The notes under the pieces are model-generated. The model was given only the letters and a program-made list of their open reading frames with translations. It made no database searches and was not told the DNA's origin. Position numbers and translations under genes: made by a program. Of a stretch of 41,400 nt of DNA, positions 3,498 through 12,615 are shown piece by piece. Numbering within the stretch: the stretch's first letter is position 1; every line of letters begins with the position of its first letter. Source of the stretch: a virus; IMG/VR virus record IMGVR_UViG_3300048804_000007, positions 1-41,400 of that record. The stretch is one strand, 5' to 3'.

Positions 3498-4352
3498 ATG
3501 AAAAAAGAACAAAAATTAATACCGATGATGAAAGGATTTAAGGCAACGGACAAGGACATGAAGTGTACGCCTGGTAATAAGGCATTCCAGTACGAATTTG
3601 ATAAAATATTTGAGCATGAGGGCGAACTTGAAATGTGTAAGGCTGGTTTTCATTTTTGCGTTCATCTGTCTGGGGTTTGGAGTTTTTACAATAATAGCGA
3701 CACAAGAGTTTTTGAGGTAGAAGCCTACGATGTTCTTGATGAACGTTCCGGCGATGGCGCAGAAGTCAAAATGGTTGCGCATAAAATAAAATTCGTCAGG
3801 GAGGTAAAAATAGGGGGCGACAGTAACACTGGCTACAGTAACACTGGCTACAGGAACACTGGCGACAGTAACACTGGCTACAGTAACACTGGCTACAGGA
3901 ACACTGGCGACAGTAACACTGGCGACAGTAACACTGGCTACAGTAACACTGGCTACAGGAACACTGGCGACAGTAACACTGGCGACAGGAACACTGGCTA
4001 CAGGAACACTGGCGACAGTAACACTGGCGACTGGAACACTGGCGACAGGAACACTGGCAACAGGAACACTGGCGACTGGAACATTGGCGACAGTAACACT
4101 GGCGACTGGAACACTTCAAATTTTTCAAGTGGTTTTTTCTGCATTGAAGAACCCAAAACAATCTCCTTTAACAAGCCTTGTGAACTTTCAAGGCAAGATT
4201 TCTTGAACAGACTGGACGTGTCGAACCTTGGCGAAGCTCTGGCAAAGAATGAGCCGATTGACTTTGAGAAGGTCAAAACTGTTCCGAATATTACAAAGGA
4301 GAAACTAAAAAAACTGCATGAGAAGTTTATTGAAGCAAGAAAGGCAAAATAA
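3498..4352 (+). CDS. DUF7666-like protein with 20 pentapeptide repeats (284 aa)
   Basis: Three parts are visible. Residues 12-100 match the N-terminal domain of the protein at 11227-12615 (KGFKATDKD..., the GFHFC motif, EVEAYDV, HKIKFVRE) and resemble what I recall as DUF7666. Residues 108-207 are exactly 20 tandem pentapeptides of the form [DYN]-[SRW]-N-T-G, likely a beta-solenoid. Residues 208-284 form a helical C-terminal domain beginning EEPKTISF, again shared with the paralog (DKPKTFRLF). A good RBS (AGAGGTGG) precedes the start. No catalytic motif is visible; a scaffold, decoy or host-interaction role is possible. Confidence 0.75.
   Translation: MKKEQKLIPMMKGFKATDKDMKCTPGNKAFQYEFDKIFEHEGELEMCKAGFHFCVHLSGVWSFYNNSDTRVFEVEAYDVLDERSGDGAEVKMVAHKIKFVREVKIGGDSNTGYSNTGYRNTGDSNTGYSNTGYRNTGDSNTGDSNTGYSNTGYRNTGDSNTGDRNTGYRNTGDSNTGDWNTGDRNTGNRNTGDWNIGDSNTGDWNTSNFSSGFFCIEEPKTISFNKPCELSRQDFLNRLDVSNLGEALAKNEPIDFEKVKTVPNITKEKLKKLHEKFIEARKAK
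3819..4118 (+). repeat. 15-bp tandem repeat, 20 units (pentapeptide)
   Basis: Twenty uninterrupted 15-base units of type GAC AGT AAC ACT GGC run across 300 bases. Variation is confined to the first two codons (GAC/TAC/AAC then AGT/AGG/TGG), apart from one ATT and the last Ser codon. Higher-order triplets (DS-YS-YR units) recur, showing block duplication. Confidence 0.95.
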
Positions 4353-4361
4353 GAGGTGGTT

Positions 4362-4571
4362 ATGAAACACGAAATTACAAAAGAGAAATTTTTGGAGATC
4401 GCGCTGCCGGGTCAAACGCTCCCGCCGAATGTAAAAGTCGAACGCTGTAATTGCGGCGGAAGTTTTTGTTTCGGCTGGACGCTGAATCATCATCCGGTGA
4501 CAATCAAACAAAGATCCAGCTTTTCCGGTGCGGCGGGGTGTTCTTATCCCGTGGGAGTAATAAAAAAATAA
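4362..4571 (+). CDS. Small hypothetical protein (69 aa)
   Basis: I chose ATG at 4362, 3-8 bases after GAGGTGG, over GTG at 4356, which lies inside that site. The product has a CNCGG motif and several glycines in its second half and could bind a metal. It directly follows the repeat protein and is probably cotranscribed with it. No family is recognised. Confidence 0.5.
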   Translation: MKHEITKEKFLEIALPGQTLPPNVKVERCNCGGSFCFGWTLNHHPVTIKQRSSFSGAAGCSYPVGVIKK

Positions 4572-4604
4572 CAAGCTTTTCCCGTGGCCACCTCTTTCGG
4601 GAAA

Positions 4605-4626
4605 AACTGGAAAGGCGTAACCAGTT
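4605..4626 (+). promoter_or_regulatory. Intergenic hairpin
   Basis: A perfect six-base-pair inverted repeat (AACTGG, ten-base loop, CCAGTT) lies in the 96-base gap before the recombination module and is followed by AAAATAA. There is no T-run, so it is more likely an RNA stability element or weak pause than a terminator. Confidence 0.3.
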
Positions 4627-4667
4627 AAAATAACCGCCACTAATTAAAACTAAAAAAGGAGGAGTTT

Positions 4668-5480
4668 ATGAATGAGGTCGTGAAGAGGGAATCCGAAACG
4701 ATGACAACAGATGACTTGCGCCGGAATATCAACTTGATTCAGGGCGTACTCAATGACGTCATGCAGAAAGATGTTCATTACGGGGTAATTAAGGGGTGCG
4801 GAGACAAGCCCGCCCTGCTCAAGCCAGGGGCTGAAAAAATCCTTGCGACATTCCGGATCGGCGTGAATTATGATGTCGAGGATCTCGGGACGGACAATGA
4901 GCGGCGTTATCGGATAACCGCAAAGGGCTTTTACATTCCAACCGGAAACCCCATCGGCTCCGGCCTCGGTGAATGCTCCTCGAATGAAAAGAAGTTCGCA
5001 TGGCGTGAAGCGGTCTGCCAGAAAGAGTTTGAATTGGCCGATGCAAGCAAAAAACAGATACTTTTCCGCAAGGGATACAAGACGGGGCAGGTCGAGGAGG
5101 TCATGCAGATAAAAACAGTTCCCGCCGACATCGCAAACACCGTTTTAAAGATGGGAAAGAAGCGGGCAATGATTGACCTCTGTCTTTCCGCCGTTGCATG
5201 TTCAGATATTTTTACGCAGGACATTGTTGAGGAAGGGATCGAAATCGAGGCGGAAACTGCAAAGGACACCACAGAGAGGGCGGAGCAGAAAGCCCCTGTT
5301 AATCCTATTTCAGATGCTCAAAATAAACGCCTGTGGGCTATCCTTTCGGGAAATGAAAGCAAGCACACCAAAGACGAGCTGGAAAAATATCTTGACACAA
5401 AATACAGCATAAATGATACACGGGAAATTGACAGAGCTTCTTATGAATCTGTTATAAACTGGATACGGGGTGCGGCGTGA
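4668..5480 (+). CDS. Putative recombination-associated protein (single-strand annealing candidate, 270 aa)
   Basis: The sequence contains the phage-typical block HYGVIKGCGDKPALLKPGAEK (residues about 37-57), then a beta-rich core and a conserved GKKRAMIDL segment near residue 163. The C-terminal about 55 residues (SDAQNKRLWAIL...INWIRG) resemble the small helical domain found at the C-terminus of several phage annealing proteins. It overlaps by four bases a RecB/Cas4-like nuclease, and annealing protein plus exonuclease is the classic phage recombination pair. AAAGGAGGAG precedes the start. The family is common in phages, but I know of no proven function for it. Confidence 0.6.
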   Translation: MNEVVKRESETMTTDDLRRNINLIQGVLNDVMQKDVHYGVIKGCGDKPALLKPGAEKILATFRIGVNYDVEDLGTDNERRYRITAKGFYIPTGNPIGSGLGECSSNEKKFAWREAVCQKEFELADASKKQILFRKGYKTGQVEEVMQIKTVPADIANTVLKMGKKRAMIDLCLSAVACSDIFTQDIVEEGIEIEAETAKDTTERAEQKAPVNPISDAQNKRLWAILSGNESKHTKDELEKYLDTKYSINDTREIDRASYESVINWIRGAA

Positions 5481-8861: not shown

Positions 8862-9034
8862 TTGAAAACATAAATGCAGTTGAACTGATTAATGAAGATA
8901 GGGAAAAAATAATTATCAGTAAATATGAACCCCACGGCGTGTTATTGCACTTCGCAGACGAGGAGTTTTGGGTTGACAATGTTGCCAAGTTTATTGATGG
9001 TCTTGAAAAATTCAAGGACAACGACGAGAAATGA
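8858..9034 (+). CDS. Small acidic hypothetical protein (58 aa)
   Basis: ATG at 8858 overlaps the preceding TGA. The 58-residue acidic product alternates short strands and a C-terminal helix. A longer open frame starting at 8925 crosses this gene but belongs to the methyltransferase downstream. No family is recognised. Confidence 0.5.
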   Translation: MIENINAVELINEDREKIIISKYEPHGVLLHFADEEFWVDNVAKFIDGLEKFKDNDEK

Positions 9035-9080
9035 AAAACAAAATACACGACAGGATTGGACAGATATTGGAGAGGGGGAA

Positions 9081-10376
9081 ATGAAACCGACTCACGTGGA
9101 TTTGTTTTCTGGAATTGATGGCTTTGCCTTGGCGGCGAAATGGGCAGGATATCAGACGGTGGCTTTTTGTGAAATAAATCCATTTTGCCAGCAGATAATT
9201 AAAAAGAATTTTGGAAAGGACGTGAAAATTTATGGGGATATCAGGAAACTTGCTGCCGACTCCTTTTACGGGCGACAGGAGAAGTGCGAAAAGCAAACAA
9301 CAGGGAATAAACAATGTGATAGCTTTACTACCAACTCCTCAAGCTCAAGGATTAAAAACCTGCGACAAGAACGGAAAAACTCAATTCATGGATTTAAACA
9401 AATCGATTTACTCACCGGCGGATTTCCTTGTCAGCCAGCCTCATGTGCAGGAAAGCGAAAAGGAACGGCGGACAACCGCTGGCTCTGGCCTGAAATGTTG
9501 CGGGTTATTAAAGAGTTCGAGCCGACTTGGATTATTGGTGAAAACGTTAATGGTCTCGCAAGCTTGGTGGAGTGGACAAGTGATCTTGAGATGGGAGGTG
9601 AAGCCGATTTTTTCGAGGAGGAAAGAAAGATATATGAAAGAGAGGGATCCGGTATCCTTAATGGAATCTGTAGTGATCTTGAATCGCTGGGATACGAAGT
9701 CCAACCGCTTGTTATTCCAGCTTGCGCCGTCAATGCGCCGCACAGAAGGGACAGAATCTGGATTGTTGGGCACTCCGGACGCCAATATGGAAAGGGGACC
9801 AAGGACGGAGGAGAACCTAAAGGACAGATATCTAGTCAGGAAGATGCCTCTATGTCTGAACGATCAATTGGCAATGATGAACAAGGGGATGATACCGACA
9901 CCGAACGCCAGAGATCACAAGTCGGGCAAGAGGCACACAAAACACGACTATCAGGTGTTGAGCGAGACAGTAGCCATGCTTCCGACGCCATCAGCAAACC
10001 TGTTGACATTCGAAGACATGGAACAGAGCCGATATGCCGGAAACGGCGGCAAGCGTCCGGAGTACAAGGACGCGAAGTTACTGCCGACCCCTTGCACACT
10101 AAACGACAGTTTTTATCCAGACAACAGTCCAAACAAGGACAAGAGACACAGCAAAGGAATGGGAACAATTTTGGACAAGAAGAACAATGGAACCGCGACT
10201 GGCTTGAAGTTGCAACCGAACTTTGTCGCTTGGATGATGGGTTATCCGTTGAACTGGGCAAATTTAAACTGTCCAAAAGCAAACACAGAGAAGAGCAGTT
10301 GAAGGCTTACGGCAACGCCATAGTGCCGCAAGTCGCATACCAGATTATGAAAGCAATACAGGAGATCGAACAATGA
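9081..10376 (+). CDS. DNA cytosine-5 methyltransferase (431 aa)
   Basis: GGAGAGGGGGAA precedes ATG 9081, which puts motif I (DLFSGIDGFALA) at the N-terminus. Motif IV is GGFPCQPAS with catalytic C117, motif VI is ENV (154-156), motif VIII is APHRRDRIWIVG (219-230), and motif X is AYGNAIVPQVAYQI near the C-terminus. Two segments are unusual: a hydrophilic insertion at about residues 58-105 and a polar low-complexity stretch at about 231-375 where the target recognition region lies. Both coincide with the nested frame 9232-10302. It probably methylates phage DNA against host restriction. Confidence 0.9.
   Translation: MKPTHVDLFSGIDGFALAAKWAGYQTVAFCEINPFCQQIIKKNFGKDVKIYGDIRKLAADSFYGRQEKCEKQTTGNKQCDSFTTNSSSSRIKNLRQERKNSIHGFKQIDLLTGGFPCQPASCAGKRKGTADNRWLWPEMLRVIKEFEPTWIIGENVNGLASLVEWTSDLEMGGEADFFEEERKIYEREGSGILNGICSDLESLGYEVQPLVIPACAVNAPHRRDRIWIVGHSGRQYGKGTKDGGEPKGQISSQEDASMSERSIGNDEQGDDTDTERQRSQVGQEAHKTRLSGVERDSSHASDAISKPVDIRRHGTEPICRKRRQASGVQGREVTADPLHTKRQFLSRQQSKQGQETQQRNGNNFGQEEQWNRDWLEVATELCRLDDGLSVELGKFKLSKSKHREEQLKAYGNAIVPQVAYQIMKAIQEIEQ
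9232..10302 (+). CDS. Overlapping LPTP-repeat protein nested in the methyltransferase gene (356 aa)
   Basis: This frame is shifted +1 relative to the methyltransferase and stays open for 1071 bases. It contains six recurrences of a (L/M/I)PTP-like motif, several followed by an N-A-R-D-type tail, and ends with QPNFVAWMMGYPLNW. I recall this combination (LPTP repeats plus xxNPxFVEWLMGxPxxW) as a recurrent phage protein pattern. The methyltransferase insertion at residues 58-105 encodes two of the LPTP motifs in this frame, suggesting selection for it. The proposed ATG 9232 has only a weak upstream site (AAAGGA about 12 bases away). The function is unknown. Confidence 0.55.
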   Translation: MGISGNLLPTPFTGDRRSAKSKQQGINNVIALLPTPQAQGLKTCDKNGKTQFMDLNKSIYSPADFLVSQPHVQESEKERRTTAGSGLKCCGLLKSSSRLGLLVKTLMVSQAWWSGQVILRWEVKPIFSRRKERYMKERDPVSLMESVVILNRWDTKSNRLLFQLAPSMRRTEGTESGLLGTPDANMERGPRTEENLKDRYLVRKMPLCLNDQLAMMNKGMIPTPNARDHKSGKRHTKHDYQVLSETVAMLPTPSANLLTFEDMEQSRYAGNGGKRPEYKDAKLLPTPCTLNDSFYPDNSPNKDKRHSKGMGTILDKKNNGTATGLKLQPNFVAWMMGYPLNWANLNCPKANTEKSS

Positions 10377-10989: not shown

Positions 10990-11230
10990 GGCGCCGGAAA
11001 GGATATCGGTAATGGTTGACTATGATAAAAACGGTAAGCTTAAAATTACAAACAAATGGTATCCGGGCAGGAAAGGCATGAAAGAGGATATCGAATACGT
11101 CCTCGCCGGATCGGCGTGGCGGAAGACGATAAAAGAGTTAAGGGCGTGGGTGGATATCATGACTTGCCTTGGAGGGGATCTGATACATAAGGAGGAACTG
11201 TTGACAAAATTAAAGGAGATGGAAAGATGA
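10976..11230 (+). CDS. Hypothetical protein (84 aa)
   Basis: AAAGGAGGCGGAAG immediately precedes the ATG. The N-terminal half is strand-like and basic, the C-terminal half helical and ending in KLKEMER. It overlaps the repeat-protein gene by four bases (ATGA). No family is recognised. Confidence 0.55.
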   Translation: MKKSRAPERISVMVDYDKNGKLKITNKWYPGRKGMKEDIEYVLAGSAWRKTIKELRAWVDIMTCLGGDLIHKEELLTKLKEMER

Positions 11231-12615
11231 AAGGATACAAGGGATTTAATGAAGACTGGCTTTGCAAAGATAACTTTAAGTTCAAAATTGGCGAGACTTA
11301 TGAGATTCCAGAAAAGCCTATTGCATGTAAAATTGGATTTCATTTCTGCGCTGAACTTTTCGACGTAATGAGCTACTACCCCATTGATAAATTCAATCAC
11401 ATTGCAGAAGTCGAGGCTTTAGGTGATACGGCGGATCATGACGAAGATTCAAAGATCGCGACTAATAAAATAAAAATTATTCGGGAAATTGGTTTTAATG
11501 AGGCAATGGATATCATTAAAAAACAAAGTCTTGAAAAAGTTAAAAAAGAAAAAAATAAAATAAACGACGAGATTAATGCAGTACGCTCCTCGGATGCAGT
11601 ACGCTCCTCGGATGCAGTACGCTCCTCGAATGCAGTACGCTCCTCGGATGCAGTCAGCTCCTCGAATGCAGTCAACGCCTCGAATGCAGTCAGCTACTCG
11701 AATGCAGTACGCTCCTCGGATGCAGTCAGCTTCTCGAATGCAGTCAGCTACTCGGATGCAGTCAGCTACTCGAATGCAGTACGCTCCTCGGATGCAGTCA
11801 GCTTCTCGAATGCAGTCAGCTACTCGGATGCAGTCAGCTACTCGAATGCAGTCAGCGCCTCGAATGCAGTCAGCGCCTCGAGTGCAGTACGCGCCTCGAG
11901 TGCAGTACGCGCCTCGAATGCAGTCAGCTACTCGAATGCAGTCAGCCACTCGAATGCAGTCAACTACTCGAATGCAGTCAGCTACTCGAATGCAGTCAGC
12001 TACTCGAATGCAGTACGCTCCTCGGATGCAGTACGCTCCTCGAATGCAGTCAGCTCCTCGAATGCAGTCAACGCCTCGAATGCAGTCAGCTCCTCGAATG
12101 CAGTCAGCGCCTCGAATGCAGTCAGCCACTCGAATGCAGTCAGCGCCTCGAATGCAGTCAGCTACTCGAATGCAGTACGCTCCTCGGATGCAGTCAGCTC
12201 CTCGAATGCAGTCAGCTACTCGAATGCAGTCAGCTACTCGAATGCAGTCAGCTACTCGAATGCAGTCAGCTACTCGAATGCAGTCAGCTACTCGAATGCA
12301 GTACGCTCCTCGGATGCAGTCAGCTACTCGAATGCAGTCAGCCACTCGAATGCAGTCAGCGCCTCGATATTCGTAGAAAAGTCCAACGCCGCAGATCACT
12401 CTATTTTTGAAATTGACAAACCAAAAACATTCAGGCTTTTTGGCGCAAATATCGCAGAAAGCAGATGGCAAGAGGTTAATTCTTATTTAAGGGAAAATAT
12501 TGACTTTAAAAAACCACTGTCAGAAGTTGCGCCGGACGTTATTTCATGGATTAAGTCTATGCCTGAATTTAAGCGGGAGATATTTGAGAGGTTTTTTAAA
12601 AAAGGAGATGTATGA
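11227..12615 (+). CDS. DUF7666-like protein with 44 hexapeptide repeats (462 aa)
   Basis: The N-terminal domain (residues 1-90: KGYKGFNEDW, IGFHFCAELFDV, EVEALGDT, NKIKIIRE) is homologous to that of the protein at 3498-4352. After a lysine-rich helix, residues 117-380 are exactly 44 hexapeptides [NDS]-A-V-[SRN]-[YSAFH]-S, then two decayed units. The last about 70 residues form a helical domain (starting EIDKPKTFRLF) that also matches the paralog. A regular six-residue period with Ala-Val inward and Ser/Tyr outward fits a left-handed beta-helix-like solenoid. The operon position is early, not structural. Function unknown. Confidence 0.75.
   Translation: MKGYKGFNEDWLCKDNFKFKIGETYEIPEKPIACKIGFHFCAELFDVMSYYPIDKFNHIAEVEALGDTADHDEDSKIATNKIKIIREIGFNEAMDIIKKQSLEKVKKEKNKINDEINAVRSSDAVRSSDAVRSSNAVRSSDAVSSSNAVNASNAVSYSNAVRSSDAVSFSNAVSYSDAVSYSNAVRSSDAVSFSNAVSYSDAVSYSNAVSASNAVSASSAVRASSAVRASNAVSYSNAVSHSNAVNYSNAVSYSNAVSYSNAVRSSDAVRSSNAVSSSNAVNASNAVSSSNAVSASNAVSHSNAVSASNAVSYSNAVRSSDAVSSSNAVSYSNAVSYSNAVSYSNAVSYSNAVSYSNAVRSSDAVSYSNAVSHSNAVSASIFVEKSNAADHSIFEIDKPKTFRLFGANIAESRWQEVNSYLRENIDFKKPLSEVAPDVISWIKSMPEFKREIFERFFKKGDV
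11575..12366 (+). repeat. 18-bp tandem repeat, 44 units (hexapeptide)
   Basis: Forty-four perfect-length 18-base units (AAT GCA GTC AGC TAC TCG type) span 792 bases without a gap. Only codons 1, 4 and 5 change the protein. The valine codon is fully linked to the next codon: GTA always precedes CGC and GTC always precedes AGC or AAC. The four-unit block at units 8-11 is repeated exactly as units 12-15, showing duplication of blocks. Confidence 0.97.

Follow-up and report, generated by a model that had tools for sequence, protein, structure and literature searches.

A conserved gene nested in the +1 frame of a phage cytosine methyltransferase, probably encoding its recognition and motif IX subunit

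Two frames in one stretch of DNA

Can a phage DNA methyltransferase gene hold a second gene in another frame of the same bases and, if so, what would the second product contribute? The question is raised by the window, the whole 41.4-kb stretch of DNA analysed here, which is an IMG/VR virus record carrying tailed-phage genes that include a terminase large subunit, a RusA resolvase and an exonuclease. On its plus strand, a C5-cytosine methyltransferase gene (9081–10376) entirely encloses an open reading frame in its +1 frame, here called P1, which runs for 356 codons from an ATG at 9232 to a stop codon at 10300–10302; both frames and their coordinates were found as reported in an earlier note on this DNA. 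The features, with their basis in brackets, are:

9069–9078, plus: Shine-Dalgarno-like GGAGAGGGGG before the methyltransferase ATG at 9081 (sequence)
9081–10376, plus: C5-cytosine DNA methyltransferase, the proposed alpha chain (Pfam PF00145, E=1.4e-43; PHROG 363, E=6.9e-64; motif coordinates)
9216–9220, plus: possible Shine-Dalgarno core AAGGA, 11 nt before the P1 ATG (sequence, weak evidence)
9232–10302, plus: P1, nested gene in the +1 frame of the methyltransferase, 356 aa, the proposed beta (recognition and motif IX) subunit (ORF; phrog_1008, E=3.3e-21; selection tests; 160/160 homologous loci from the closer part of the family)
9246–9401, plus: insertion in the methyltransferase between motifs III and IV, the +1 frame of which encodes the first two P1 LPTP motifs (homologue spacing comparison)
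9253–9339, plus: P1 LPTP motifs 1 and 2, at 9253–9264 and 9328–9339 (sequence)
9417–9437, plus: methyltransferase motif IV, GGFPCQP with the catalytic Cys (motif coordinates)
9735–9761, plus: methyltransferase motif VIII region, APHRRDRIW, followed by the LPTP region in the target-recognition (TRD) slot (motif coordinates)
9766–10092, plus: P1 LPTP-like motifs 3 to 6, where the methyltransferase frame is neutral (sequence, omega)
10204–10260, plus: P1 motif IX-like segment LKLQPNFVAWMMGYPLNWA (motif IX scoring and register)
10308–10337, plus: methyltransferase motif X, YGNAIVPQVA, just past the P1 stop (motif coordinates)

The mechanical ORF of the methyltransferase begins at 8925; its most likely start is the ATG at 9081, with GGAGAGGGGG directly 5' of it, which would give an enzyme of 431 codons. 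The outer frame contains the PF00145 motifs I, IV (PCQ), VI (ENV), VIII and X. The earlier note had gone further and credited it with all catalytic motifs, and here it has to be corrected, as motif IX is absent from the enzyme frame. P1 has the six LPTP-like motifs that the note reported (LPTP at 9253 and 9328, LGTP at 9766, IPTP at 9892, LPTP at 9979 and 10081), as well as NFVAWMMGYPLNW, which lies inside 10204–10260. The start of P1 at ATG 9232 is not fixed, and its Shine-Dalgarno support is weak: four-nucleotide cores precede 39% of P1-frame ATGs versus 30% of control ATGs, a weak enrichment, and with five-nucleotide cores the trend between the same two sets is reversed.

Elsewhere in the window, 11227–12615 encodes a protein consisting largely of AVxxSN/AVxxSD repeats, which leave long ORFs open in another frame at 11576–12376 on the plus strand and at 11449–12471 on the minus strand.

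Conservation of the overlap and selection in both frames

We permuted the synonymous codons of the methyltransferase 10,000 times, retaining its protein sequence and codon usage. The longest +1 open run observed is 358 codons, whereas the shuffles average 117 and peak at 275; because none of them reaches the observed length, the P1 frame is not a matter of chance. Searching with P1 by tblastn returned matches in Bacteroides, Acinetobacter and Paenibacillus larvae phages, and all five of the matching loci inspected have P1 inside a methyltransferase gene, in its +1 frame.

So as not to select for this result, 80 viral and 80 bacterial loci were then picked by methyltransferase alignment alone. 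A +1 ORF matching the P1 profile was present in 160/160 of them (80/80 viral, 80/80 bacterial, from several bacterial phyla), a statement that applies to the closer part of the family, since these loci are the best-scoring 80 of several hundred candidates per scan. Sampling in the reverse direction gave the same picture, with an overlapping methyltransferase frame in 79/79 loci fetched by the P1 C-terminal pattern. Across the 80 viral loci, the median +1 open run is 269 codons, versus 103 expected from synonymous shuffling (p<0.05 in 79/80), while open runs in their +2 frame are no different from the shuffle expectation. Several stop-to-stop P1 frames of the family exceed that of the window, reaching up to 499 codons (L012). 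Stops in the +1 frame of homologous methyltransferases had been named beforehand as what would mark the overlap as accidental; the frame proved open at all 80 viral and all 80 bacterial loci. On these sequence comparisons, the overlap is family-wide and not peculiar to the phage of the window: it persists in hundreds of related phages and bacteria.

Substitutions were counted in 38 independent homologue pairs whose enzymes are 60–97% identical. The change at enzyme codon positions 1/2/3 was:

Before P1:.136/.091/.374
Overlapped catalytic core:.090/.044/.189
LPTP region:.401/.276/.320
Around MMGYP (motif IX segment):.164/.050/.120
After P1:.149/.104/.381

Within P1, third-position change in the enzyme frame thus drops to half; at the P1 stop codon it goes back to its normal level, rising from.127 in the six codons before it to.310 in the six after it, and in the LPTP and motif IX regions change at the first position, the wobble base of P1, exceeds that at the third. 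Free variation of the enzyme's synonymous sites, likewise named as a sign of chance, is therefore not what the 38 pairs display: these sites are constrained, and only inside P1. From a Wei-Zhang-style count of dual-frame changes, omega of P1 is 0.61 in the core, 0.74 in the LPTP region and 0.31 in the motif IX region; the value of 1.20 outside the overlap indicates no constraint on that frame, as expected there. Omega is below 1 for both frames in the core and motif IX regions and for P1 only in the LPTP region, where the enzyme frame is neutral (0.93–1.08), which implies that in the TRD slot only P1 is selected. Judged by these substitution patterns, P1 is a real gene, and the overlap is real and conserved, with both frames selected over most of its length.

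The LPTP motif recurs at 511 sites spread over 57 of the 64 possible methyltransferase tripeptides, and so is not caused by the enzyme sequence. The proposal that the second frame shaped the enzyme's insertion between GDIRKL and LLTGGFPCQP also gained support: the insertion is real (9246–9401) and holds two LPTP motifs in its +1 frame, and among homologues LPTP occurs in the P1 frame of 9/9 with a long insertion (at least 45 residues from the D-I motif to GGFPC) versus 4/173 with short spacing. When P1 and the enzyme frame were compared by profile, no homology emerged, and we therefore rejected the idea that P1 is a frame-shifted copy of the enzyme.

Other insertions were seen in this part of the gene. 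Two loci carry HNH endonuclease-like sequence between enzyme motifs III and IV (L006 1791–2520, L074 1900–2610). L006, which of the viral loci is most closely related to the window gene, additionally carries TGAATCA, an insertion of 7 nt, where the Pro and Cys codons meet. At L003 818–2000, an intein-like insertion, itself interrupted by stops, sits at the catalytic Cys, its end reading VVHN before CQPFS.

Motif IX and the layouts of relatives

C5 enzymes require motif IX a short way before motif X. The enzyme's own polypeptide yielded no motif IX, its score of 3.6 being background (3.2 for shuffled tails), while P1 tails score 13.9. The canonical C5 motif fits best exactly at the P1 MG.P segment (the MGYP register) in 186/232 homologues, compared with 0.4% in a column-shuffled control, and its median distance to motif X is 22.7 codons versus 24 in one-frame enzymes.

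A single frame holds motifs I–VIII, LPTP repeats, a WMM-type, motif IX-like segment and motif X in eleven actinophage and prophage enzymes (L294–L304). The P1 profile recognises their WMM-type segment; a simple motif IX scan peaks at it in 1/9 one-frame relatives and elsewhere in 8/9. Mycobacteriophage Dorothy has the same parts split into gp71 and gp72, with gp72 in the +1 frame, and at L020 and L024 methyltransferase motifs I–III are in frame with P1 and the other frame holds the remainder, as would be the case if one enzyme drew on both chains.

A profile of the motif IX segment, which is short, matched no methyltransferase in the PDB, and the whole P1 profile had no match there. AlphaFold2 modelled P1 alone with a mean pLDDT of 56 and no similar fold was found, a result that would fit a chain folding only with its partner and, equally, a poor model. 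The AlphaFold2 model of the one-frame actinophage enzyme L298 matches M.HhaI over its core (E=4e-13), with low confidence in the LPTP region; ahead of motif X, at the place expected for motif IX, the model has a strand-strand-helix, and the match list is silent on whether that segment was aligned. P1 most likely carries the motif IX absent from the enzyme frame, a conclusion drawn from register, spacing and the one-frame relatives, not from a structural match.

Because the spacing of motifs IX and X, the one-frame relatives, the Dorothy split and the L020/L024 fusion fit one model, we read P1 as a second chain, and consider it likely that a single stretch of DNA here encodes both polypeptides of a C5-cytosine methyltransferase, with P1 as its recognition and motif IX (beta) subunit, working like M.EcoHK31I. 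The outer frame (alpha, 9081–10376) would give the catalytic chain with motifs I–VIII and X; P1 (9232–10302) would be translated separately, from its own +1-frame start inside the gene, supplying motif IX and the LPTP-repeat segment that fills the target-recognition slot. The two chains would associate on DNA as a heterodimer, with P1 recognising the DNA, and methylate a specific cytosine, probably protecting phage DNA from host restriction.

P1 could instead be a real nested protein that is no subunit of the enzyme but a phage protein in its own right, acting for instance in DNA binding, regulation or anti-restriction, which arose by overprinting of the methyltransferase gene and was retained there. 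We consider this unlikely, although P1 is clearly coding by substitution pattern and omega, and its N-terminal part (GLKC..LTWK..RLLFQL) is without counterpart in the one-frame actinophage enzymes. This reading would also suit the Bacteroides loci L177, L179 and L181, which have TGA codons in the enzyme frame and an intact P1, and L193, where a second, free-standing P1-like ORF (4147–4713) lies directly downstream of the nested pair, with the other two frames full of stops. However, the spacing between P1 motif IX and motif X is as it should be, monomeric relatives hold the same segments in frame, and we found P1 nowhere apart from a methyltransferase gene but for the L193 copy, which directly follows one; our search of viral contigs and phages found no further free-standing copies. 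The extra copy also fits the two-chain reading, being what would be expected if P1 were a separate, exchangeable subunit.

Programmed frameshifting, producing one chimeric enzyme with motifs I–VIII from frame 0 and the LPTP repeats and motif IX from the +1 frame rather than two chains, seems to us less probable again. The joining of motifs I–III to P1 in L020 and L024 and the actinophage enzymes, which are natural fusions, are compatible with it, and the evidence on the P1 ATG is not decisive; yet a second shift back to frame 0 would be needed for motif X, and near motif IV ATGs are far more frequent in the P1 frame than in frame 2 (354 versus 98), with a P1-frame ATG upstream of or near motif IV in 224/225 loci. 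Finally, that the +1 frame is a passive shadow of the enzyme's amino-acid sequence and codon use, with no protein made, is highly improbable and in essence refuted by the selection tests, for although +1 runs of about 103–117 codons in shuffled genes indicate an enzyme family permissive for +1 openness, no shuffle matched the observed length, third-position constraint begins inside P1 and ends at its stop, LPTP recurs across most possible enzyme tripeptides, and the P1-like copy in L193 does not overlap.

Stops within the enzyme frame were a separate observation. In 33 viral contigs, some of them identical, TAACTA, TAACTG or TAGCTG (a stop and a Leu codon) stands in frame exactly between the motif IV Pro and catalytic Cys codons (L043 2470, L074 2578, L107 2753, L153 2753, and L260–L293 except L277). 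In most of them the enzyme frame is nevertheless open downstream and bears a selection signature, and P1 is open across the hexamer; candidate explanations are readthrough, reinitiation or one more split in the enzyme. Bacteroides-type loci have a TGA just before motif X (L003 2894, L177 4069, L179 4123, L181 4123), at a position where the relatives L001 and L002 have a Trp codon, and in L177, L179 and L181 a second TGA falls in the LPTP region; P1 is intact throughout.

Known two-chain enzymes and what the overlap would mean

The small chain of M.EcoHK31I is encoded in another frame within the large-chain gene, and M.EaeI is alike. Compared by motif layout, both of these YGGCCR enzymes resemble the locus described here in having a large chain without motif IX and a small chain with it. 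For M.EcoHK31I, two polypeptides are needed: the large chain has motifs I–VIII and X, and the small chain contributes just motif IX (PMC3404938). The TRD of M.EcoHK31I is predicted on the large subunit, whereas here the large-chain recognition slot is neutral, P1 is selected, and P1 has LPTP repeats. M.AquI is likewise a C5 enzyme in two polypeptides with motif IX on the second (PMC3404938), but it is split in the variable region and has motif X on the small chain, unlike the present locus, which has a nested small gene and leaves motif X to the large chain.

Among phages, orf13 and orf14 of Streptococcus phage MM1 (GenBank DQ113772) are annotated as C5 methyltransferase alpha and beta subunits, and here too a +1 ORF is nested inside the gene, its N-terminal segment weakly similar to P1; matches to this type of nested ORF are present in 226 phage records. 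In contrast to the window, motif IX is in the enzyme's own frame, and the nested ORF is without LPTP and MMGFP. Canonical Streptococcus and Lactococcus phage C5 enzymes with a different nested +1 ORF (QMSLF...WMNWG...CSLSDILE) were also seen at L258 1643–2068 and L306–L309, with third-position change of.351 inside the nested ORF versus.525 after it. Since enzymes of this type have motif IX in frame and still a nested ORF, supplying motif IX may not be the only role of nested ORFs in this family.

The one-frame actinophage methyltransferases (for example Gordonia phage Jabberwocky gp4) share the LPTP repeats and the WMM..P segment with P1, which matches phrog_1008, but hold these segments in the enzyme's own frame and have no significantly long +1 frame. 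ShiLan-type elements, mobile HNH endonucleases inserted in phage methylases (PMC11855218), resemble P1 in being out-of-frame coding inside such genes; P1, however, is without HNH similarity and is not a mobile insertion. Our search of the open-access literature found no description of the present overlap, which on its sequence features is best described as a widespread variant of the two-polypeptide C5-methyltransferases.

Annotation pipelines often retain one of two overlapping frames; the Porphyromonas phage018a record, for example, annotates P1 and omits the enzyme frame. If the two-chain reading is true, phage ORFs now labelled hypothetical or mislabelled (phrog_1008 and the fragments phrog_26627, 27243, 31772 and 35493) would become candidate specificity subunits, and the locus would represent dual coding that is large in extent, fully nested and widespread among phages and bacteria, with a directly assayable function and with the parts of one enzyme lying in different frames. 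How selection is shared between overlapping frames can also be studied cleanly in this natural case. For the broadest interpretation we see the balance as even: a widespread class of phage and prophage methyltransferases may keep the recognition part and motif IX in a different frame of the same DNA as the catalytic part, the catalytic chain being neutral filler in the recognition slot, so that specificity would evolve through a hidden LPTP-repeat subunit that can be duplicated as a free-standing second subunit, as in L193.
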